Shown in pieces: positions 31,861 through 47,438 of a stretch of 64,000 nucleotides of DNA. A model generated the notes under the pieces. It did not search any database and was not told the DNA's origin. It saw only the letters and a program-made list of their open reading frames with translations. Position 1 is the stretch's first letter, and each line of letters opens with the position of its first letter. Position numbers and translations under genes: made by a program. Origin of the DNA: a virus; IMG/VR virus record IMGVR_UViG_3300009610_000003, positions 18,173 to 82,172 of that record. The stretch is one strand, 5' to 3'.

Positions 31861-32312
31861 TTTTCCAGTCGGTCAAGAATGAGGTTCACCCGCTCGTCGC
31901 CCAGCGCGGCCAGCCGGGTGACAATCGTCTGTAGGCTGCTCAGCACCGTGTCACCGCCATCGAACCTGTCGGTGGCGTACTGGTGGTGAGCGTCATACTT
32001 GTCGCAGCGGCGGCAATAGCGGGTGAGCCGGGCATTCACATCGGTGGCCACGGCCTTGCATTTCTGGCACTGGTAGGGACGGCGCTTGACCTCGGCCCGG
32101 AATGCCAGTTCCTCGGCCCGCGCCCGTTCCTGTCGCATGGCGAGAGCGGTCGGGGATGGCGAGTGGGTCGGAGATGGCGAGTATGGGGCCGGGGGCGCAT
32201 AAGTCACGAAACCGATGTAGTCGTGATAATTGAACTCGGCCAGCGTGATGCCCCGTTCCTTCAGATACCGGTAGACGTTCGCGTCAAGCTTCGTATCGAC
32301 ATCGATCACCAT
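31857..32312 (-). CDS. zinc-ribbon protein, 151 aa
   Basis: YQCQKCKAVATDVNARLTRY and CRRCDKYDAHHQYATD form a four-Cys zinc ribbon after a Pro/Ser linker (PAPYSPSPTHSPSPT). N-terminus ANVYRYLKERGITLAEFNYH. Start at ATG 32312, overlapping the polymerase stop by 7 bases. Sits just downstream of the polymerase in the coupled operon; a replication accessory is inferred. Confidence 0.6.
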   Translation of the reverse strand: MVIDVDTKLDANVYRYLKERGITLAEFNYHDYIGFVTYAPPAPYSPSPTHSPSPTALAMRQERARAEELAFRAEVKRRPYQCQKCKAVATDVNARLTRYCRRCDKYDAHHQYATDRFDGGDTVLSSLQTIVTRLAALGDERVNLILDRLEK

Positions 32313-34285
32313 GGCTTCTTGGCCTCTCCCCAAGTGGGTCCTACCTCGAAATCGACAATCGTCGGGACGACGAGCGGCGTCGTTTCGACCATGATCGCCT
32401 GTGCCTTCTCGGCGACCGCCCGGTCGGCGGTGCTGATGTCAAGCTCGTCGTGCAGTTGCAGCATCGGCACGATGCCTTCGCGCCAGCAGGCGAGCATCGC
32501 CAGCTTGGTCTGGCGCGCGGCTGAGCCCTGAATGAGGTTGTTCAGGCTCTTGCGGGTGTCGGCCCGCCGCAGCATCGTCTTGGCCCATGGGTGGTCGGGG
32601 TTCTCGCGCCGCTTCATGGCCTCGTCGTAGCTGCACGGGCTCATCTTGTGCCCCTGCGCCTCGGCGCTCATGCGCGTGTCGAAATCGACATAGCCGCCCT
32701 CCCAGCGCGGGTAGTGCATCCGGGCACCGTCGATCAGCCTGATGTAGCCGCGCTCGTTGGCGGCCCGCTTGCATTCGTCCTCTAGGCTTTTGATGAACGG
32801 CAGGCGGTTGTGATAGTCGCGCAGCAACTCTTCAGCTTCGGCGAGGCTCAGGCCAAGCTCTTCCGCCAGCGCCCGCTTGCCTTTGCCGTAGGTCATCGAC
32901 AGGTTCAAAATCTTGGCGATGGCGCGGGGCCGGTCAACCATCTCGGCGACCATCTGGTGATAGTCGGTGCGCGGGTCGTCCAGATACCGCTGCACTGCCG
33001 CCTCAGCGCCCCGTGCACCGACCTTGGACGCGAAGTGCACGGTCAGCCGTGGCTCCTGCTGGGAATAGTCAAGCGCCACCCAGCGCTCGCCCTCTTCCGG
33101 GAGGAAGCAGCTTCTGATCGCCACGCCGATGTCGTCCTTGTCAGGGGAAGGCATCTGCTGAAGCGGTGGTTCCGAATAGCTGAACCGGTGCGAGCGTGTC
33201 CCCCCGGACGTGTCGCGATACTGGTGTATCTCGGCGTGGATGCGGCCCCGGTATTCGTAGCTCAGCAGGAAGTTCTCAAGGAACTTCGACTTGGCTTCCT
33301 CGTACTTTTCAGCGACCGCACAGGCGCGCGGCAGCGGGTGGTCGTGCTTCTCCATCCAGTCTTTGGTGAAGCTCGCCTGTGAGGTCTTCTGGGTGCGCGG
33401 GAAGGCGATATGCTCGCGGCTGAACCATTCTTCCATCTGCTTGGGCGAGCGCACCTCTTTCATGCTGGCGGCACGCTTCAGTTCCAGCAGCGAGCCGACC
33501 TCGGCCAGTGCCGCGTCGCGCTTGGCGGTGAACGCCTTCATGGTCTGTTCGATGCGGGGCATGTCCAGCCGGATGCCGCGCCGCCGCATGGCGGTCACCA
33601 TGGGCAACAACGCCATCTCGGTGTCGTAGGCCCCGGTCAGGTTTTGCGCGTGCAACAGCGGTGCCGTGTGCTGCCACAGCGCCCATGTCTGCTCAGCGTC
33701 GGCGATGGCGTAGGGGGCCGCGAACTTGGCTTCCACGGCCCAGATGGCCTGAGCCGCCTTGGCGGGGTCGTAGCCCTCGCTTTCCACGGCCTGCGCCAGC
33801 AGCTTCTTGTCCTTGCCGGGAAGGCCGATGCGATGGCAGCAATCGTCCAGCGCGTAGCTGAATTCGTTCTCGTCGGTCAACACACAGGCGGCGAGCGTGT
33901 CATCGATCTGCGCGCCGGTCAGGTCGGCCCCGCTCGTCGTCAGCCAGCCATAGTCGTAGGCGGCGTTGTGGAAGACCAGCCGGGTGGCGCTCTTGGCGAT
34001 GTCGGTCACCCACTGCATGACCTCTGTCCGCGCGAAATGGTTGCCGTCAGCATGGTAGATCGGCGCATAGCCGCTGGTGCCCTCGGCGGCCCAGCTTACG
34101 CCGCAAATGTAACCTTGGCCGAAAGCCCAGCCGGGGCCTTTGCCATGCTCAAGACCCATGTCGCGGGTTTCGCAGTCAAGCACCACCACCGGATGCTGCC
34201 GCAGGTCGGGCAGTTCCGATGGTGGTTTCCAGTCGCTGTCGGGGCGGAACAAGCCAAGCTGCCCTTGTTTGAACCTCTTGGCCAC
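32306..34285 (-). CDS. family A DNA polymerase with 3'-5' exonuclease, 659 aa
   Basis: N-terminal proofreading domain: VVVLDCETRD (D37, E39), LVFHNAAYDYGW, and YAIADAEQTW. Polymerase domain: motif A WVALDYSQQEPRL (about 405-413), motif B R454-x3-K458-x3-L462-x3-Y466, motif C MLQLHDELDI. No 5'-nuclease domain, as expected for a replicative phage enzyme of about 660 residues. The residue equivalent to E. coli Phe762 is Leu (L462), a natural variant noted in viral PolA. It is co-transcribed with the thymidine-modification genes, so it likely has to incorporate and copy 5-hydroxymethyl-dU and bulky bases. Confidence 0.93.
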   Translation of the reverse strand: MAKRFKQGQLGLFRPDSDWKPPSELPDLRQHPVVVLDCETRDMGLEHGKGPGWAFGQGYICGVSWAAEGTSGYAPIYHADGNHFARTEVMQWVTDIAKSATRLVFHNAAYDYGWLTTSGADLTGAQIDDTLAACVLTDENEFSYALDDCCHRIGLPGKDKKLLAQAVESEGYDPAKAAQAIWAVEAKFAAPYAIADAEQTWALWQHTAPLLHAQNLTGAYDTEMALLPMVTAMRRRGIRLDMPRIEQTMKAFTAKRDAALAEVGSLLELKRAASMKEVRSPKQMEEWFSREHIAFPRTQKTSQASFTKDWMEKHDHPLPRACAVAEKYEEAKSKFLENFLLSYEYRGRIHAEIHQYRDTSGGTRSHRFSYSEPPLQQMPSPDKDDIGVAIRSCFLPEEGERWVALDYSQQEPRLTVHFASKVGARGAEAAVQRYLDDPRTDYHQMVAEMVDRPRAIAKILNLSMTYGKGKRALAEELGLSLAEAEELLRDYHNRLPFIKSLEDECKRAANERGYIRLIDGARMHYPRWEGGYVDFDTRMSAEAQGHKMSPCSYDEAMKRRENPDHPWAKTMLRRADTRKSLNNLIQGSAARQTKLAMLACWREGIVPMLQLHDELDISTADRAVAEKAQAIMVETTPLVVPTIVDFEVGPTWGEAKKPW

Positions 34286-34288
34286 GGG

Positions 34289-34792
34289 TCAGATGCCCCG
34301 GTTCAGTTCCTGCCGCACGGCGCGCACGGCGTCGTCCATGCCCGTGTCGGCGTCGCTGGCGGCAGCGTGGTGGCCGCCGTTCTCGGGCGTGCCGCCATGA
34401 CCGTTGGCAGCAACCTCTTTCGTCCGCTTGCCATAGATGTCGTGAACCCGCTGCATGGCTTCCTCGCGGGTGCAGCCCCAGCCCACGGCGAGCGCGGCGT
34501 AAAGCTCCTGCCCGTCATAGGGCCGCACGGGCTTGCGCAGGCGGTCTGCGACGCAGCGGGCGTAACCGGCGATGTCGTCCCAGTGATCTTCGTGGCTGGG
34601 GTCGCCTGCCAGTATGCGGGCCATCTTGTGGGCGATCATATAGAGCGCGTGCCGCTGGGGGTCGGGCAGGATGGGCCAGTTGCGCTCGCGCTGCATGGCC
34701 CGCAGCATCTCCCACGTCGCCCGTGAATTCTCGTTGAATTCGCCATGCACGGGGGCGCGCTCGCTCATCACCTTGGCGGTCTTGTCCATCAT
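34289..34792 (-). CDS. DUF6378-like protein, 167 aa
   Basis: APVHGEFNENSRATWEMLRA, RNWPILPDPQRHALYMIAHK, MARILAGDPSHEDHWDDIAG and YARCVADRL match the DUF6378 phage family, whose role is unknown although its members commonly sit with nucleotide-metabolism genes. C-terminal Gly/His-rich tail. ATGA overlap with the HD gene upstream, 3-bp gap to the polymerase. Confidence 0.75.
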   Translation of the reverse strand: MMDKTAKVMSERAPVHGEFNENSRATWEMLRAMQRERNWPILPDPQRHALYMIAHKMARILAGDPSHEDHWDDIAGYARCVADRLRKPVRPYDGQELYAALAVGWGCTREEAMQRVHDIYGKRTKEVAANGHGGTPENGGHHAAASDADTGMDDAVRAVRQELNRGI

Positions 34793-35373
34793 GCGCTTTC
34801 CTTCAGGTTGTAGCCCACGGCCCCGGTGCGCCGGTTCATCTGGTACAGCACGTCTTCGTGCCTTGCGTCGGCGCGCTCAATGAACTCATTCACGGCGTTG
34901 TAATCGTCGCGGGTCAATGTTGCCGCGAGCTTCAGGGCGGCCTGTCGCGTGCGCATGACGATGGCGATGGCGTACATATTGCCCATCAGCCGTTCCACCA
35001 TGCCGAACTGCATTATTTCCAAGAGGTCGCACACCTTGATGCGGGCGATCAGGTTTGGATGCAGCGGCGGCAGTTGCGCCAGCTTCAGCTTGTCCATCTC
35101 CCGGCGTTCCAGCCGCTCAACGATGCTCTTGAGGTCGGGATTTTCCGCTTTCACGGGGAACGGGATGTCGCCGACGCCAAGCTCGCCCGCGTCGTGCAGG
35201 CGGATATAGCGTTCGACCGGGCCGCCCAGATCGCCGAAGATGGCCGCGTAGATGCAGGCCATCTGCCAGCTATGCTCAGCCACCGTCTGGGTCTGGATGG
35301 TAGGCCACGTGTGATACCTTCTGGTGCGGCCCGCGAAATACAGGTCGTCGGTCACGAAATCGGTTTGGGTCAT
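34789..35373 (-). CDS. HD-domain phosphohydrolase (YfbR-like), 194 aa
   Basis: TQTVAEHSWQMACIYAAIFG, RYIRLHDAGELGVGDIPFPV and KVCDLLEIMQF carry the H...HD...D metal site and the GDIP motif of YfbR-type deoxynucleotidases, which hydrolyse nucleotides. In phages with altered bases such enzymes deplete a canonical dNTP or dNMP; which one is not visible. Lies in the modification/polymerase operon behind an internal AAAAAGGATCG-type promoter (35410-35438). Confidence 0.8.
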   Translation of the reverse strand: MTQTDFVTDDLYFAGRTRRYHTWPTIQTQTVAEHSWQMACIYAAIFGDLGGPVERYIRLHDAGELGVGDIPFPVKAENPDLKSIVERLERREMDKLKLAQLPPLHPNLIARIKVCDLLEIMQFGMVERLMGNMYAIAIVMRTRQAALKLAATLTRDDYNAVNEFIERADARHEDVLYQMNRRTGAVGYNLKESA

Positions 35374-35678
35374 GTAGCGTCCTCGTCAACAATGCCTCTT
35401 CCGACCTTGCTTTTACGATCCTTTTTCGTTCCGGGCAAACCTTCGGGCTCAGGTTCGTGGTCTTCCAGCCGCTCGCGCGCCTCGCGCCGCTGCCGGGGTG
35501 GCAGTTCCTTGGCCGCCGACGCAGCCCTCGTCGCCGCCGCCTGACTGACGCGGGCCAGCACTTCGACCTGACCGGTGCCGCTGCACGACAGGCACGGGTT
35601 GCCCGATACCGGGTCGGTGCCCTCGCCAGCGCACGCCTCGCAGTCGCGTACCTTCTTGATCGTCCTGAAAATGCTCAT
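35370..35678 (-). CDS. DnaJ-type CxxCxGxG zinc-finger protein, 102 aa
   Basis: VRDCEACAGEGTDPVSGNPC followed by LSCSGTGQVEV is a pair of CxxCxGxG repeats as in DnaJ zinc fingers. The rest is a basic/acidic helical tail (PRQRREARERLEDHEPEPEG). Start at ATG 35678 is in ATGA with the previous stop. Possible protein-binding adaptor; no further assignment. Confidence 0.65.
   Translation of the reverse strand: MSIFRTIKKVRDCEACAGEGTDPVSGNPCLSCSGTGQVEVLARVSQAAATRAASAAKELPPRQRREARERLEDHEPEPEGLPGTKKDRKSKVGRGIVDEDAT
35410..35438 (-). promoter_or_regulatory. internal AAAAAGGATCG-type promoter before the HD gene
   Basis: On the minus strand: TTGCCC, 17-bp spacer ending GAAAAAGGATCG, TAAAAG. It lies inside the upstream zinc-finger gene, 37 bases before the HD start, and would add transcription of HD, DUF6378 and polymerase. 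Confidence 0.6.
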
Positions 35679-35974
35679 TTCCATGTCTCCTTGACGCGCC
35701 AATGTTGAAGCAGGCGGATTTTCCCTGACGAATTCATGCCCGCCAGTTTGACGGGGTCATCAAGGAACCCCTTGTCATGCAGCGGCTTCATGCGCGGCGA
35801 GACAGACCACTTGTCGATGTTCATCTCGGCAGCGATCTGAATTGAAGTCATGTAGCGTGGCCAGCATGTCCGCATGAAATTAAAGACATCCTCTTCCAAT
35901 TTCGATTTCCCAACAATGCTTGCGGCCAGATGTGAAGTGTAGGGGTCGCCCGGTCGGGCTGATGCACTTGTCAT
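35675..35974 (-). CDS. winged-helix DNA-binding protein, 99 aa
   Basis: DPYTSHLAASIVGKSKLEED, MTSIQIAAEMNIDKWSVSPR and MKPLHDKGFLDD read as a winged helix, as in small phage or plasmid regulators. Start 35974 in ATGA with the TS-like stop; an upstream in-frame ATG at 35998 is less likely. May regulate the operon. Confidence 0.6.
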   Translation of the reverse strand: MTSASARPGDPYTSHLAASIVGKSKLEEDVFNFMRTCWPRYMTSIQIAAEMNIDKWSVSPRMKPLHDKGFLDDPVKLAGMNSSGKIRLLQHWRVKETWK

Positions 35975-36957
35975 TTCTTCATCCTCCGTTTCAGCCACGC
36001 TGCCGTAGCAATTCGCCAGTCAGGCGCGGCAATTGAATGTGCCCAGTTCAGTGCTTCTTCCCAGTCATGCTCTTTGCGCAGTTTGTTCGCGAGGAACATG
36101 GGCCGCGCCGTGTTGGTCAGGAATTCATTTCGCAGCTTCGGCACCTCGTCGGGGTCGGCGACATAGGCCCTGACATCGGCGTCGAATGTGTAGGGGTCGG
36201 TCACCAGCGGCAGCGTGCCGGGGTAGGCCGGATGACGGGACATCGCGTCAAGGCTCACCAGATGCTTGGCGCTGTCGTACATATGCCAGTTCCAAGAGAA
36301 CTGGGTCATCGTGCCCATGCCGACGCCGATGCGCGCGGCGAGGTATTCCTGCAAGATTGAGAAATGCACGACATTCGCGCCGTAGCAGCCCCAGACGATA
36401 TCGTTGCTGCGGCAGGTGACGCCAAGATCAAGCGCGTTTTTCTGAATGCGCAGGTAAATCTGGGTGTTGCAGGGGCGATCCTTTAAGCCAACGACACCCA
36501 GATCACATGGCGCGTCCCACATCTGGATGACGGCTTGGCGGCTGGTCGGGTCGTCCTGCAAAATGCTAATTACTTTTTTCAACTGGTCTAGCGCCGTGTT
36601 GGTGTAGGCATTTGGGTTCTCGAAATGGCGACGCCACCGGTAGCCGTAGGCCCCGTGCATCTGTCCGTCTTCCTCGGCGAACCGGGCCGAGAAGTCGCCG
36701 ACGAACTGGTCAAGCCATGTCGCGTCGTTCTGCCCGGCGAGCATCCACAGCGCTTCGTGTAAGTGAAATATAGGGTTTGCATCCCTGACCGGGTCGAACA
36801 GCACCCGCTGCATCGGTTGTGCATAGTTGGTGACCACCGGCCACGGCACGACGCGCACGTTACCCGCCCGCGACGGCTCAGGCACGCCGTACATATCAAT
36901 CAGGGTGATTGCCTTCGGCCATGCGTCGTTGACGTTGGTCGCGTGTATCGTCCTCAT
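35971..36957 (-). CDS. thymidylate synthase homologue, probable dUMP hydroxymethylase, 328 aa
   Basis: TS-fold landmarks: FHLHEALWMLAGQND, GAYGYRWRRHFEN, SRQAVIQMWDAP, catalytic Cys in DRPCNTQIYLRI (C163), RSNDIVWGCYGANVVHF and WNWHMYDSAKH. The Cys is followed by Asn instead of the His of cellular TS, and the base-recognition Asn (N195, GANVV) is kept, which fits dUMP rather than dCMP as substrate. In phages this divergent group, beside kinase and transferase genes, makes 5-hydroxymethyl-dUMP; whether it methylates or hydroxymethylates cannot be told from sequence. Start at ATG 36957 is in ATGA with the small gene upstream. Confidence 0.75.
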   Translation of the reverse strand: MRTIHATNVNDAWPKAITLIDMYGVPEPSRAGNVRVVPWPVVTNYAQPMQRVLFDPVRDANPIFHLHEALWMLAGQNDATWLDQFVGDFSARFAEEDGQMHGAYGYRWRRHFENPNAYTNTALDQLKKVISILQDDPTSRQAVIQMWDAPCDLGVVGLKDRPCNTQIYLRIQKNALDLGVTCRSNDIVWGCYGANVVHFSILQEYLAARIGVGMGTMTQFSWNWHMYDSAKHLVSLDAMSRHPAYPGTLPLVTDPYTFDADVRAYVADPDEVPKLRNEFLTNTARPMFLANKLRKEHDWEEALNWAHSIAAPDWRIATAAWLKRRMKK

Positions 36958-37151
36958 ATCAGCCCTTCTCTCATCGCCAGCCATTCCGGCAGCGTCACGA
37001 TGACGATGTCGCTGCCCCTTTTCCCTTCGATGTCGCACTGGCTCTTGGGTAACCAGACGGCATCTTTTTCCTCGCCGCTGTCGGACACCAGAATAGCCAT
37101 GGGGGTTTCGTGGTGCAGGTGCAGTGTCAGGTCGATTGGCTCGCGGCTCAT
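36954..37151 (-). CDS. small protein, 65 aa, unknown
   Basis: MSREPIDLTLHLHHETPMAI, LVSDSGEEKDAVWLPKSQCD, IVIVTLPEWLAMREGLI. The DAVWLPKSQ and ITLPEWLA pattern occurs in small phage proteins near replication genes. ATGA overlaps on both sides, between kinase and TS homologue. Function unknown. Confidence 0.6.
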   Translation of the reverse strand: MSREPIDLTLHLHHETPMAILVSDSGEEKDAVWLPKSQCDIEGKRGSDIVIVTLPEWLAMREGLI

Positions 37152-37711
37152 AGTCCCAGCAACTCCATGGTCTTGGTCATCGCCTCGGCGCGTGGCAGCA
37201 TGAACACGTTCAGGCCAATTTTCCGGTTGTTCCGGGTCGTGACGATCAGCGACCGGTGCTTGTTCCGGGTGTGAACCTCGTTGAACGGGTTGGGGCTTTG
37301 CGCTGCCTCGCGGCGCGCGTAGATCGACGCCAGACACTCGTCTATCGTGGTGGCCAGCAGGATGACGGTGAGGCCCCCGGCGGCGTCCAGCTTGCGCAGG
37401 CGGGGTTTCCCCCAGCTACCCACCAGCAGCCCTTCAAACAGCACGTTCTGGCCCCGCAGGGCCTCGGCGACGATCAACGCTTCCTGATCGTTGGCCGCCC
37501 CCGGCCACGTCTGCGCGTCGCAGCCACCGGTCGCCTCATCGTAGCGCCCGATGACCGTCAGCTTGGCCTTGTCCCAGATGTAGGCCCCGACCTTGCGCCG
37601 TGGCCCGAGCGGGAGCTTGAGCGCCTTGTCCATGCCCCCGGCCCGTGCCATCGCCTCGCGGGCGATGAAGCTCTTGCCGGAACCCGACGCACCTCTCAAC
37701 AGCACAATCAT
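37148..37711 (-). CDS. P-loop kinase, candidate 5-hmdU-DNA kinase, 187 aa
   Basis: Walker A at residues 7-14 (GASGSGKS), then VGAYIWDKAKLTVIGRYDEA, NVLFEGLLVGS (Walker B-like), LTVILLATTIDECLASIYAR and an Arg-rich lid (NKHRSLIVTTRNNRK). Fold is an ATP-dependent small-molecule or nucleotide kinase. Known thymidine-hypermodifying phages use a P-loop kinase to phosphorylate 5-hydroxymethyl-dU within DNA; position between TS homologue and transferase makes that the best guess, not proof. Confidence 0.7.
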   Translation of the reverse strand: MIVLLRGASGSGKSFIAREAMARAGGMDKALKLPLGPRRKVGAYIWDKAKLTVIGRYDEATGGCDAQTWPGAANDQEALIVAEALRGQNVLFEGLLVGSWGKPRLRKLDAAGGLTVILLATTIDECLASIYARREAAQSPNPFNEVHTRNKHRSLIVTTRNNRKIGLNVFMLPRAEAMTKTMELLGL

Positions 37712-38148
37712 GGGCGATCCATTAGATACTGCTTAAAGTATTCGTTGGCGAGCGCGCCCTTCCGAACCTGCTTCACGGCCTCGATTGCCTCGGCTCCGGT
37801 CAGGCCCCGCAGCCGCATCAGGGCCAATGCCGCCACCAACCCCGAGCGGTTGCGTCCGCCCCAGCAATGCACCAGCGCGCAGCCGCCCTCCCGGATGTGG
37901 CGTTCGACACGCACGGCGGCATACTCGGCGACGATTGCCGCTTCGCCCGTGACCTTGCCGTCTGGCATGGTCTTCTGCTCGTACCAGCCCACCAGTTCGC
38001 GCACCCGCGCATCGGGCGTGTGCCACAGGTTCATCACGCCGGTAATGTCATGGTCGCCAATCAGGTAACGCACTTCGTTATCGGTCAAGGTGTGGGTTCG
38101 CGCCGACAGGTACATCCGGCCCGGCATCAACTCGTAGACCCGCATCAT
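37708..38148 (-). CDS. dual-specificity/tyrosine phosphatase-like protein, 146 aa
   Basis: Active site signature HCWGGRNRSG (HCx5R-S/T) with preceding Asp-bearing loop region (WHTPDARV) and C-terminal helix (AIEAVKQVRKGALANEY) of the compact dual-specificity fold. It is coupled to the kinase and transferase genes by ATGA on both sides, so it may reverse or proofread a phosphorylated intermediate; a protein or nucleotide substrate is equally possible. An in-frame start at 38157 exists; 38148 fits the overlap. Confidence 0.78.
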   Translation of the reverse strand: MMRVYELMPGRMYLSARTHTLTDNEVRYLIGDHDITGVMNLWHTPDARVRELVGWYEQKTMPDGKVTGEAAIVAEYAAVRVERHIREGGCALVHCWGGRNRSGLVAALALMRLRGLTGAEAIEAVKQVRKGALANEYFKQYLMDRP

Positions 38149-39146
38149 GCCGACCATTCCTTCGGATGCGCAAAGTCAGTGGTGGAAAGGTAGTTGAACC
38201 GCAGGTCTGACCACGTGTAGCCATGGTCGGCCAGCGATGCCGCCGCGTCTTTGCGCGGCTTGTCCCAGCCCATCATTTCGCCGAGATGCTTGAACGGGAA
38301 CAGCTTCTTGCGCGCCTGCCAGATGGCCGATGTGTATTCCCACTCGTCCTCGGCCCGCCGGGCATATCTCAGTTCGCTGTCGTGGCTGCGGCCCGGATAG
38401 AACTTCTTGCTTTCCCAGCTTTCGCGGTATTCGCACAGCAGCACCTGAAGCTGGAACATATCGATCTTGATGCCGTGGTCGTCGTCCAGCAGCGCCAGCG
38501 CGTCTTCGCAGCTTTCGTGCGCCAGCTTCAGGGCTTCCTTGGAATTGTCCCTGTTGCCCAGCCCCCGGTCGGGGAACAGGTAGCCGAGCGTGTGCCTCGG
38601 TGACCACGCGGCGAAGGGCCGGATGTCGGGCGTGCGCACCGGCAGGTCGTGGAAGCGCCGCAGGTATTCGATGAGCTTGATGGCCGCGTACCTGCCCACC
38701 GTCTCGATCTTCAGCACGTGTTCCCACGCGATTTCGAACCCCTCTTCCGGGGTGGCCGCGTCAAAGCACCGTTCGCACAGCTTGTCGTAGATGCCGATGA
38801 AGTGCTGGCAGTCGCGCAGGTATTCATACATCTGGTCCGGGCGGCGCGCGGCGCGGCGTTCGATGCGCGTGGTGATGTGGCCTCGGGCAAAGGCGGTGTC
38901 CAGCCAGTGGCGCATCCACTGAGGGCTTTCCATGCACTTGCTGAAGGGCAGGCCGCGCCACAGCACCTCGCCGTAGGGCACGTTGTAGACGCCGATGTAG
39001 CAGCACCCCCGCCATATCGCTTCCTCGTCGCTAGCGGCGTCCTTGGCCATCTCGAATACCGTGGGCAACTGCGGGTCGGGGCCGCCGCTCGCAAGCTCCC
39101 ACTTGCAGAACTCGGCGAAGAATTTCCGGTGTTCCTCGGTGTTCAT
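38145..39146 (-). CDS. ADDT/aGPT-Pplase-like thymidine hypermodification protein, 333 aa
   Basis: Entirely helical, with LPTVFEMAKDAASDEEA, YIGVYNVPYGEVLW, GRYAAIKLIEYLRRFHDLPV, DIRPFAAWSPRHTLGYLFPD and LLCEYRESWESKKFYPGRSH. I read this as the family described bioinformatically as alpha-glutamyl/putrescinyl thymine pyrophosphorylases and experimentally as amino acid:DNA transferases in thymidine-hypermodifying phages; the assignment is from recalled family patterns. It would attach an amino group donor to activated 5-hmdU in DNA. Start ATG 39146 in ATGA with the radical SAM stop. Confidence 0.6.
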   Translation of the reverse strand: MNTEEHRKFFAEFCKWELASGGPDPQLPTVFEMAKDAASDEEAIWRGCCYIGVYNVPYGEVLWRGLPFSKCMESPQWMRHWLDTAFARGHITTRIERRAARRPDQMYEYLRDCQHFIGIYDKLCERCFDAATPEEGFEIAWEHVLKIETVGRYAAIKLIEYLRRFHDLPVRTPDIRPFAAWSPRHTLGYLFPDRGLGNRDNSKEALKLAHESCEDALALLDDDHGIKIDMFQLQVLLCEYRESWESKKFYPGRSHDSELRYARRAEDEWEYTSAIWQARKKLFPFKHLGEMMGWDKPRKDAAASLADHGYTWSDLRFNYLSTTDFAHPKEWSA

Positions 39147-40063
39147 TTCGTGAACCATGACAACTCCAATCCAAAACGCTTGCCCTGACCCTCGGTGCAT
39201 TTGTCGCAGGGTTTCTGCGCCCCCCGGTCACGCGCGATCAGGTTGGCGCGCACCTCGTCGTAGGCGTCCCACAGGTCGGGAAGCGACCGTTCCGGGAAGC
39301 TCCCGATGATGTGGGCATCTCCCCAGTCATCGCAGCAAAAGGGCACCGAGCCGTCGAACCACATCGGCATTTCTCTGAACGGCCTGACGCACATCCGGGC
39401 CAGCGGCGCAGCTACGGGTCGGACGTTTGGATAAATCTTGGATGCCCGGCCCGGCCCTACGTCAGCAAATCCACCTTGGTTGTGGTAGTGCAGGATGACG
39501 TTCTCGCGCGGCACGCGGCCTAGCTCGCTCTTGTAGGTGGTGGCGTCCTTGATGATGAGCGCCCGCCAGTTGGGGCCTCGGTAGCCGTAGGGGCTCATGG
39601 CCTCGTCGCCGAAGAACAGGTCGGCGGCACCCTTGAACAGCACCGTGAACTCGCGCAGGCGCTTGGGTGTGTAGCAGTCGAGCAGGAAGCAGTTGACACC
39701 CTCGGCCTGCGCTTCGGCGACCCATTCCCTAAACAGCGGCAGGCCCAGCACGTTGACCAGATCGCCGTTGGTGCTGACGAGGAACTGTGCCTGCGGCAAC
39801 AGCTTGCGGGCGATGCGGATGAACCTGATGAACTGGGGGTGCATCGTCGGCTCGCCACGGTTGGCGATTTCAATTCTGACCTTCGGTTTCCAATCTCTCA
39901 CGGCCCGACAATAGTCGATCCATAAGTCTTCGTGCATGAACTGGTAGGGGCCTTCGGCCCATGTCTGGTTGCGCAAGCCGCAGAAGACGCATCGCATGGT
40001 GCAGCCGCGCACGAATTCCGGCTTCAGCGTGTACGGCAGATGCCGCCCGCCTGTATTTCCCAT
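39143..40063 (-). CDS. radical SAM/SPASM enzyme, 306 aa
   Basis: RGCTMRCVFCGL gives the CxxxCxxC [4Fe-4S] site (C21, C25, C28); IEIANRGEPTMHPQF is the GE motif; FLVSTNGDLV and FLLDCYTPKRL continue the barrel. The C-terminal SPASM-like part has ARMCVRPFREMPMWFDGSVP, FCCDDWGD and KPCDKCTEGQG for auxiliary clusters. Radical SAM enzymes tailor hypermodified thymidines in some phages; it heads the modification operon here. Start at ATG 40063 is preferred over GTG 40072 because AAGGGGAG lies 8 bases upstream. A terminator-like hairpin sits directly before that ribosome site. Confidence 0.85.
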   Translation of the reverse strand: MGNTGGRHLPYTLKPEFVRGCTMRCVFCGLRNQTWAEGPYQFMHEDLWIDYCRAVRDWKPKVRIEIANRGEPTMHPQFIRFIRIARKLLPQAQFLVSTNGDLVNVLGLPLFREWVAEAQAEGVNCFLLDCYTPKRLREFTVLFKGAADLFFGDEAMSPYGYRGPNWRALIIKDATTYKSELGRVPRENVILHYHNQGGFADVGPGRASKIYPNVRPVAAPLARMCVRPFREMPMWFDGSVPFCCDDWGDAHIIGSFPERSLPDLWDAYDEVRANLIARDRGAQKPCDKCTEGQGKRFGLELSWFTK

Positions 40064-40083
40064 CGAAGTCACTCCCCTTCGAA

Positions 40084-40616: not shown

Positions 40617-41756
40617 TTATTTGGTGACCTCGTAGCCCTTGTGAACGACGCCCAGTTTCTCGTCGCCTCGGCCATGGCTGGTGCGCCACCAGCGCTTTGC
40701 CGGGCACTTCTGGCAATGATACCTGTCCGGGGTCACCGGTTCCCACTCATGCGTGCAGGCGGGTATGCGGCGGCTTTGGCACCAGTGCCCGCGCACCGAG
40801 TGGTAGCGGTGGTGCCTGTCGGTGTGTCCGCCCTCGGTGACGCGCCGGTAGCTTTCCTGCGGGCTCAGGTGCAACTTGACGCTGTTGTGGCTGACCAGCA
40901 CCTGACTGTGCCCCTTGAGCAATATGCGCTTGTGCGGCTCGTCAGTGACCATCAGCACGTGCTTCGTGGGCCGCGTCAGCAAGAGCAGCATGATGATGAT
41001 CTGCTTCATGCTGCCAGCGGAAGAGCGCAGGGTTCGCAGCTTGTCCACGACCGTCATCTTGTCGAACGGCGGCTTGCTGTAAAATTCGAAGCTGTGGCTG
41101 CGGCAAATCTCGTTGGCCACATGCGTGTTCCACCACTTCCCCTCAAGACCGGGGTCGCCATAGATCATCTTCCGCAGCATCAGCCGCGACGTGTTCAGTT
41201 CCTGCGCCAGTTCCAGTTCCCGTTCGAACGTCATCGGGCGGTGCAAGTGGTAGATCAGCGGGGTGACGCCAACATCGTCCAGACCGAGTGCCGTGGTGGT
41301 TTTCCGCCGCGCCTCGGACGCCGAGTAGACCTTGCCATGATCGAAGAAGTAGCCCACCCGCGTGTCGGCGGTCGGGTCGTCGGGGTTCATGCCGGGGATG
41401 ACCTCGGCGTAGGCGCGGAAATCCATTTCCAGCCACGTAAGCTGGTGCGGCGGTCGGGCAAATTCATGCTGTTCCAGCATCAGCGGCGCGGCCTTATTGA
41501 CCAGTTCGCCGACCAGACGACTGGCCGGTGCATCCAGCACAAAGCGATGCGCCATGCGCAGGCTGAGCGGCGAGATGCCGCTGTAGTTCAGCGCCTTCTG
41601 GTTGGCCAGCAGCTTGTCGATCAGGTTGGGCTGCGGCTTGGGCTTCCTGACGAAGCCCCGCAGCAAGCCGTCGATGTCTTTCTGGGTGCCGCCGTGCGCC
41701 TGCTTGAGGGCAGTGCGCACGGTCTTTGAGGGGGTGCCAGCGGGGAAGGTGGTCAT
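40617..41756 (-). CDS. conserved phage protein, 379 aa, unknown
   Basis: Long N-terminal part with WLEMDFRAYAEVIPGMNPDD, VGYFFDHGKVYSAS, ELAQELNTSRLMLRKMIY, RSSAGSMKQIIIMLLLLT. C-terminal module YHSVRGHWCQSRRIPACTHE, WEPVTPDRYHCQKCPAKRWW has Cys/His residues suited to zinc and resembles the HxVRGHxR-type ending of phage and bacterial proteins of unknown role. ATGA overlap with the helicase upstream, so expressed with it. Confidence 0.6.
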   Translation of the reverse strand: MTTFPAGTPSKTVRTALKQAHGGTQKDIDGLLRGFVRKPKPQPNLIDKLLANQKALNYSGISPLSLRMAHRFVLDAPASRLVGELVNKAAPLMLEQHEFARPPHQLTWLEMDFRAYAEVIPGMNPDDPTADTRVGYFFDHGKVYSASEARRKTTTALGLDDVGVTPLIYHLHRPMTFERELELAQELNTSRLMLRKMIYGDPGLEGKWWNTHVANEICRSHSFEFYSKPPFDKMTVVDKLRTLRSSAGSMKQIIIMLLLLTRPTKHVLMVTDEPHKRILLKGHSQVLVSHNSVKLHLSPQESYRRVTEGGHTDRHHRYHSVRGHWCQSRRIPACTHEWEPVTPDRYHCQKCPAKRWWRTSHGRGDEKLGVVHKGYEVTK

Positions 41757-46556: not shown

Positions 46557-47438
46557 TCAACCAGCTTCGGCATAAATTCCGTTTCGAAACAATTGCTTCG
46601 GTCGGCCCTCGCCCAAGCGCGTGCGCTCGTACTTGTCGAATTCGCACAGCACGTTCTGGACATCCTGCCCATCGGGAACGGGCCAGCCCATGTTGACGAA
46701 CAGCGGTTCAAGCGCGTCCTGTAGCTCGCTGACCCGCAACCGGAACTCATCTTCCTTCCAGCTACGATCTTTGGGCAGGCTCATGACCCGGTTCATGCCG
46801 CGCTGGCTTCCCGGCCCGGACGCGCAGAACGTGTTCCAATCTTTCGCTTGTCGCAACACCCCGTGGTGCTTGGTATCGGCGACGATCTGCGCCGACATGA
46901 ACGAACCCAGCCCGTGCCACAGGCCGAGTGCCATGTGCCAGCCCGTCAGCGTGTCGCCAGCCTGCGGCCTGATCTTCTCGCGGCCCTTCCACAACGGCCC
47001 CAGCACATCATGGGCGAGGTACTTGGCCTTGCCGCCGGGCACGCCGCTGTGCGCGCCAATCATGTAGGCCGCGCCGAATGCCTTCTCACCGCGCTTCTGG
47101 CGGCTTTCCATGATTTCGATGAACAGGTCGGCATTCCATGGCAGGGGAACCCCGCCGAACGCTTCCAGCGTCGGGACGTGGTTCACATGCCGGGCAACGG
47201 CGAATGCGTGCCACAGGTCAGGCTCGTCGGCGTGCGGGTCACCCCAGTTCTGGCGCAGCCACGCGGTCACCGCGTCCAATTCCCTGTACACGTTGCAAAA
47301 TCGGAACTTCTGGAAGATCGGGTCGTCCGTCCAGTTCTTGGCAGGCTCCCCGGCTGTGCGCCGGATGTAGATCAGGTGCCGCTCCCGGCTGAAATTCCAC
47401 ACGTCTTCGACGCGCATCCGCTCGTTGATGTCGATCAC
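46557..47438 (-). CDS. thymidine-hypermodification family protein (HMUDK helical domain/aGPT-Pplase-like), 293 aa
   Basis: Helical protein with RHLIYIRRTAGEPAKNWTDD, FCNVYRELDAVTAWLRQNW, GEKAFGAAYMIGAHSGVPGG, GLGSFMSAQIVADTKH, TFCASGPGSQRGMNRV and DGQDVQNVLCEFDKYERTRL. The FCNVYRExD, SGPGSxRGxN and VQxxLCExxKY motifs place it in the group linked to 5-hmdU-DNA kinases and glutamyl/putrescinyl-thymine enzymes. Assignment is from remembered family patterns. GTG start at 47438 in GTGA with the NPKK protein, which suggests the two act together. It lies 6.5 kb from the main modification operon. Confidence 0.65.
   Translation of the reverse strand: MIDINERMRVEDVWNFSRERHLIYIRRTAGEPAKNWTDDPIFQKFRFCNVYRELDAVTAWLRQNWGDPHADEPDLWHAFAVARHVNHVPTLEAFGGVPLPWNADLFIEIMESRQKRGEKAFGAAYMIGAHSGVPGGKAKYLAHDVLGPLWKGREKIRPQAGDTLTGWHMALGLWHGLGSFMSAQIVADTKHHGVLRQAKDWNTFCASGPGSQRGMNRVMSLPKDRSWKEDEFRLRVSELQDALEPLFVNMGWPVPDGQDVQNVLCEFDKYERTRLGEGRPKQLFRNGIYAEAG

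Follow-up and report, generated by a model that had tools for sequence, protein, structure and literature searches.

To the best of our knowledge, the characterized thymidine hypermodifications of the pathway found in Pseudomonas phage M6 and in phage PaMx11 all carry amino-acid-derived or polyamine groups; M6 makes 5-aminoethyl-deoxyuridine, and gp46 of PaMx11 is a 5-PmdU glycinyltransferase. Here we describe a related gene cluster from the IMG/VR virus record IMGVR_UViG_3300009610_000003. The stretch of DNA that was analyzed (the window) is 64,000 nucleotides long and consists of bases 18173-82172 of an 82,172-base record, in which a terminal 123-base direct repeat suggests completeness. We are highly confident that a minus-strand operon in the window, which is predicted to encode a radical S-adenosylmethionine (SAM) enzyme, an ADDT-like transferase, a Cys phosphatase, a P-loop kinase, and a thymidylate synthase (TS) homologue, makes a hypermodified thymidine. 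That the decoration of this phage would be derived from inositol is our preferred reading, to which we give about even odds.

The first-pass annotation of this DNA had proposed thymidine hypermodification, and the proposal is supported by an HMUDK_hel protein, by the ADDT fold of the putative transferase, by the M6-type TS homologue, and by synteny with phages M6, PaMx11, and Pam3. The order TS homologue, HD phosphohydrolase, (DUF protein), DNA polymerase is identical in these three phages, and because of this shared order we regard thymidine hypermodification as well supported. Profile searches with the two transferase-like proteins, suggested at the same time as a check, placed neither in an unrelated family. 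One has the ADDT fold and the other, encoded ∼6.5 kb upstream of the operon, is an HMUDK_hel protein, which scores 119.6 bits for PF18723 where 25 would suffice and shares 33-36% identity with M6, PaMx11, and Sonora proteins. The TS homologue shows ∼39% identity over 99% of the protein to the M6 and Bordetella phage enzymes, and its best PDB match is CMP 5-hydroxymethylase (2e-19), with thymidylate synthases behind. We rejected the possibilities that the protein is a standard thymidylate synthase or that it is a dCMP hydroxymethylase, since the nearest relatives are phage dUMP (deoxyuridine monophosphate) enzymes, the alignments keep an Asn where TS binds dUMP (Asp in the CMP enzyme), and two Trp residues of TS are absent.

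The P-loop kinase contains a Walker A motif and has weak Pfam matches only, and a search of PDB sequences with the single protein returned chance matches only. By tblastn it is related to kinases near HMUDK_hel in PaMx11, RaNi, and RHph_TM26, where the kinase gene lies directly before HMUDK_hel (PaMx11 and RaNi) or two genes before it (RHph_TM26), and a profile of its relatives matches PaMx11 gp49 (2e-30) and M6 gp54 (9e-10). PF18748 reaches 19 bits, of the 27 needed, on a relative of the kinase and not on the window protein. The name "terminase small subunit", widely attached to the kinase of such clusters (phrog_800; GenBank entries of PaMx11, Ab18, and P26218), is probably wrong.

The transferase of the window is a member of a separate ADDT clade. 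It scores 25.3 bits against PF18724, just below the cut-off of 26.2, which is passed by its relatives in locus L030 (36.7 bits) and locus L042 (33.7 bits) and by gp123 of Caulobacter phage Cr30 (179 bits). Comparison of the clade with glycinyltransferases by hhalign gave a borderline result (probability 64, E = 6e-5), and for this reason a fold comparison was used instead. With the AlphaFold model of the window protein (pLDDT 93.8), the three top PDB matches were all 5-PmdU glycinyltransferase (8z2m/8z2n; probability 1.00, TM 0.5-0.6), and the next, unrelated match had a probability of 0.08. A search of PDB sequences gave chance matches only for the single protein and none for the clade profile. 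A scan of genome contigs with the ADDT clade retrieved no bacterial or prophage relative, and no host was identified.

The clue to what this clade might transfer comes from its partner genes. In most relatives the ADDT gene adjoins a gene for a 360-residue inositol-3-phosphate synthase (PF01658, 1e-36; TIGR03450, 7e-148), which matches Ino1 of Mycobacterium tuberculosis over its full length (6e-134) and in which many motifs of the catalytic region are invariant across 16 phage copies. The relatives were gathered by IMG/VR searches with the radical SAM, phosphatase, and ADDT proteins and then with the synthase; all loci were scanned with profiles, and those with the ADDT clade were grouped at 70% identity, resulting in 21 groups. 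The synthase is found on the same contig in 18 of these groups, a count that is inflated because many of the loci were found via the synthase search, and the Cys phosphatase is present in 20. Less biased samples agree: when loci were found via the phosphatase, every contig that reaches past the ADDT gene carries the synthase, the window's own group excepted, and both ADDT-clade loci found via HMUDK_hel carry it as well. As a control, 80 loci found with HMUDK_hel were examined. Glycine-type ADDT occurs in 19 of them, none with synthase or phosphatase, and the two control loci that have the synthase both have the window's ADDT clade, one of them with the phosphatase fused to ADDT. The difference in phosphatase between the ADDT-clade groups (20/21) and the glycine-type groups (0/18; Fisher's exact p = 3e-10) is indicative only, given shared ancestry and sampling. 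Outside the clade, an HMUDK_hel-family gene lies ∼1-3 kb from a synthase in 11 further phage records.

Judging from gene arrangement, the linkage of the synthase to ADDT and phosphatase is functional and not just inherited order, because it persists where the order is rearranged (L027, with the synthase after the phosphatase) and where the synthase belongs to another subfamily (L182), because ADDT and phosphatase (L042 and L157) or phosphatase and kinase (L040) form single proteins, and because the tailoring genes that separate synthase from ADDT differ among loci. In this slot L008 and L031 have a radical SAM gene of the window's type, L040 and L043 have FkbM methyltransferases, L032 and L044 have HAD phosphatases, and L034 has an SDR together with an iolG-like Gfo/Idh/MocA protein, for which inositol 2-dehydrogenase is the second-best NCBIfam match, below the model cut-off. 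Polyols are possible substrates of all these classes, and the tailoring genes are compatible with a cyclitol. Taken together, the partner genes of the clade point to inositol-type decoration and not to an amino acid, which lends support to the earlier suggestion that the modification is perhaps novel. A synthase gene was also seen in Stenotrophomonas phage Moby (L101, 4188-9602), where it lies inside a DNA-modification block of the deazaguanine type, flanked by GTP cyclohydrolase on one side and QueC/Tgt/QueE on the other, and inositol may have a use in this phage as well.

The radical SAM protein matches PF04055 and, more weakly, SPASM. The first-pass annotation had named it radical SAM/SPASM; the first half of that name stands, but the protein is of the Twitch type, with one auxiliary-cluster Cys set, and not a full SPASM protein. 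Its CX3CX2C motif and auxiliary Cys 228, 246, 289, and 292 (numbering of the open reading frame that starts at 40072) are invariant in five relatives, and relatives lie near the same ADDT clade in L008, L031, L183/L184, and L186. In the last of these, a 377-residue protein with no Pfam match is encoded between the radical SAM and ADDT genes (L186:986-2119), and the upstream part of the cluster is cut off. When the radical SAM profile was compared with all PDB sequences, BtrN, an aminocyclitol dehydrogenase, was the sole confident match (1e-8; next 0.1). This fits ring oxidation by the putative radical SAM enzyme and is no proof of it. The AlphaFold model of the protein is poor (pLDDT 55) and was set aside. 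It should be noted that a related radical SAM/SPASM gene occurs in 5-hydroxymethyl-deoxyuridine (5-hmdU) kinase loci with no recognized ADDT (L121, 11480-13477; L138, L151, L159, L161, L164, L174, L177, and L179-L181). In L121 it adjoins a probable glycosyltransferase, and loci of this kind perhaps represent a further type of decoration.

The phosphatase of the window has a CX5R loop (HCWGGRNRSG) and, upstream, the general-acid Asp in a PDG loop. A sub-branch of the phosphatases (L024, L026, L027, L028, L029, L033, and L041) keeps the CX5R loop, mostly as HCEAGRGRSV, and has no PDG loop, which suggests a changed activity.

Based on these observations, we propose the following pathway. The TS homologue would make 5-hydroxymethyl-dUMP, the HD enzyme would clear canonical dTMP, the polymerase would build 5-hmdU into DNA, and the kinase, together with the HMUDK_hel protein, would phosphorylate it there, after which the ADDT-fold enzyme would have a nucleophile replace the phosphate. 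Up to this displacement the steps rest on homology to the M6/PaMx11 pathway. What we newly infer is that the nucleophile would be a hydroxyl of inositol or of a close cyclitol and not an amino acid. In the relatives, the synthase would turn glucose-6-phosphate into the ring and the Cys phosphatase would take off the ring's phosphate. The window phage has no synthase, so it would depend on the host for inositol or inositol phosphate, and its radical SAM enzyme would oxidize the ring before or after attachment. More broadly, phages that use an ADDT-fold enzyme, its donor switched from amino acid to cyclitol, may form a widespread class. Their decoration of thymidine, and perhaps of further bases, would be inositol from a phage-encoded inositol-3-phosphate synthase, either as such or oxidized or methylated, and the window phage would belong to them as a scavenger of host inositol with a radical SAM dehydrogenase to oxidize it; we see the chances of this wider proposal as evenly poised.

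Several points besides the inflated synthase count weigh against inositol as the donor. Searches with the family, the protein, and a six-frame hidden Markov model found no inositol-3-phosphate synthase in the whole 82-kb record; that a copy was overlooked elsewhere in the genome was considered and rejected, since all searches were blank and the record is apparently complete. L183/L184 likewise have the radical SAM, ADDT, and phosphatase genes with no synthase in the available stretch. The donor is not readable from the ADDT fold, the similarity to BtrN falls in regions of general radical SAM and Twitch character, from which a substrate does not follow, looser relatives of the radical SAM protein occur in 13 control loci that lack this ADDT clade, and the phosphatase could act on DNA instead. 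It is the missing synthase, which leaves host inositol (or its phosphate) or another sugar or cyclitol as donor, that holds our estimate for the window phage at an even balance; for the synthase-bearing relatives an inositol decoration is somewhat more likely.

A modification of the M6/ViI kind, in which ADDT would add an amino acid, the radical SAM enzyme would remodel it, and the phosphatase would strip leftover phosphates from the DNA, is the strongest alternative, and we consider it rather unlikely. The glycinyltransferase of PaMx11 is the best PDB fold match of the transferase, the window phage has no synthase, and the M6 cluster includes a gene annotated as a photolyase that is presumably the radical SAM enzyme of M6. 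Against this, the transferase clade is tied to synthase and phosphatase in the relatives while glycine-type ADDT has neither in the 80-locus control, and the window's radical SAM protein has no tblastn match among the M6 genes, its closest relative of solved structure being BtrN. The donor might instead be a different sugar or cyclitol, such as a host hexose or aminocyclitol phosphate, processed by the phosphatase and the radical SAM enzyme, with inositol restricted to the synthase-bearing relatives. The radical SAM gene is indeed present in both synthase-less lineages (the window and L183), and related genes occur in other 5-hmdU-kinase loci, that of L121 beside its probable glycosyltransferase. 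L008 and L031 nevertheless have adjoining synthase and radical SAM genes in the company of the same ADDT and phosphatase, a pairing that favors one common donor, and we regard this alternative as improbable. Finally, it is very improbable that the synthase only happens to lie near the DNA-modification genes and serves osmolytes or lipids as an independent auxiliary metabolic gene. Some phage synthases are indeed found in records that match neither HMUDK_hel nor the ADDT clade (Moby, G001, and others), and several contigs are short, but the operon-like contacts with ADDT and phosphatase recur in many divergent phages and, as described above, survive rearrangement (L027) and a second synthase subfamily (L182), with HMUDK_hel-family genes close by in the 11 further records.

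If the inositol proposal is true, DNA decorations would gain a new chemical class in the inositol-derived base, which is predicted to confer resistance to host restriction, and a function would be at hand for inositol-3-phosphate synthase, a phage metabolic gene that is so far unexplained. The proposal would also provide new enzymes for biochemistry and labeling, namely an inositol:DNA transferase and a ring-oxidizing radical SAM enzyme. We found no literature that links inositol to phage DNA modification, in a partial coverage that makes an earlier mention possible.

The open reading frames named in the first-pass annotation are all present on the minus strand, and the operon genes follow one another in the order of the table below, from the radical SAM gene to the polymerase. 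Overlaps of 4 bases occur at six junctions (radical SAM/ADDT, phosphatase/kinase, kinase/65-residue protein, 65-residue protein/TS, zinc finger/HD, and HD/DUF6378), the ADDT and phosphatase genes overlap by 13 bases, and a gap of 3 bases separates DUF6378 from the polymerase. The modification genes had been described as fused to the polymerase operon; they are co-oriented and contiguous with it, without any protein fusion to the polymerase. The 65-residue protein is also found in L013, L014, L015, and L024. Upstream of the operon the window has a 379-residue gene with no Pfam match (40617-41756, minus strand), which is conserved at the corresponding place in L008, L018, and L020.

Predicted genes of the modification operon and the distant HMUDK_hel gene, in window coordinates
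Feature	Coordinates	Strand	Evidence and remarks
Radical SAM protein, Twitch type	39143..40063	-	start codon 40063 or 40072, uncertain; Pfam 8e-10 (PF04055) and 2e-5 (SPASM); BtrN 1e-8
ADDT-fold DNA transferase, predicted to decorate phosphorylated 5-hmdU	38145..39146	-	PF18724 1.5e-5; AlphaFold pLDDT 93.8
Dual-specificity-type Cys phosphatase, predicted inositol-phosphate phosphatase	37708..38157	-	DSPc 5e-10
P-loop kinase (GASGSGKS), predicted 5-hmdU DNA kinase	37148..37711	-	homology to phage kinases near HMUDK_hel
65-residue protein, between kinase and TS	36954..37151	-	phrog_8389 6e-11
TS homologue, predicted dUMP 5-hydroxymethyltransferase	35971..36957	-	PF00303 5e-24; phrog_5131 1e-89
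Small winged-helix-like protein	35675..35998	-	weak matches only: MarR 0.2, phrog_1123 0.001
DnaJ-type zinc-finger protein	35370..35681, start approximate	-	PF00684 1e-4; kept in relatives
HD phosphohydrolase, YfbR type, predicted dTMP/dNMP phosphatase	34789..35373	-	PF12917 2e-8; same position in M6, PaMx11, Pam3
DUF6378 protein	34289..34792	-	PF19905 7e-8
Family A DNA polymerase	32306..34285	-	contiguous open reading frame; polymerase after TS/HD in M6, PaMx11, Pam3 too
5-hmdU DNA kinase helical-domain protein (HMUDK_hel / aGPT-PPlase1)	46557..47438	-	PF18723 2e-34

Among known systems, the M6 cluster shares with the window the TS homologue-HD-polymerase order and homologues of the kinase and HMUDK_hel. 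It differs in having a glycine-type ADDT and genes annotated as threonine dehydratase and photolyase, in lacking the Cys phosphatase and the window's type of radical SAM enzyme, and in that its kinase and HMUDK_hel genes adjoin, whereas those of the window are 9 kb apart. The window transferase shares its overall fold with PaMx11 gp46, but the two are only ∼14% identical, belong to different clades with different partner genes, and carry different motifs (GRYxxIK instead of GPWIGFK). BtrN, a radical SAM 2-deoxy-scyllo-inosamine dehydrogenase of butirosin biosynthesis, has the same radical SAM core and single Twitch auxiliary-cluster Cys set, although its similarity to the phage protein is low. 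Ino1 (PDB 1gr0), which the relatives' synthase matches, has no counterpart in the window phage, and the phage copies are set apart from it by their location in DNA-modification clusters. Cr30 (L194, 11733-21656, minus strand) is T4-like, with no HMUDK_hel match and no linked Cys phosphatase found, and its ADDT matches the window's clade at only 2e-14. It also encodes a weakly matching TAGT-glycosyltransferase-like protein (gp122) and the CBASS inhibitor Acb3 (gp107). Like the relatives of the window phage, Cr30 has a synthase (gp121) near a strong ADDT (gp123, 1e-52), in its case two genes away, together with a weak P-loop nucleotide kinase match (gp114), and as a cultured phage it puts the inositol proposal within experimental reach.

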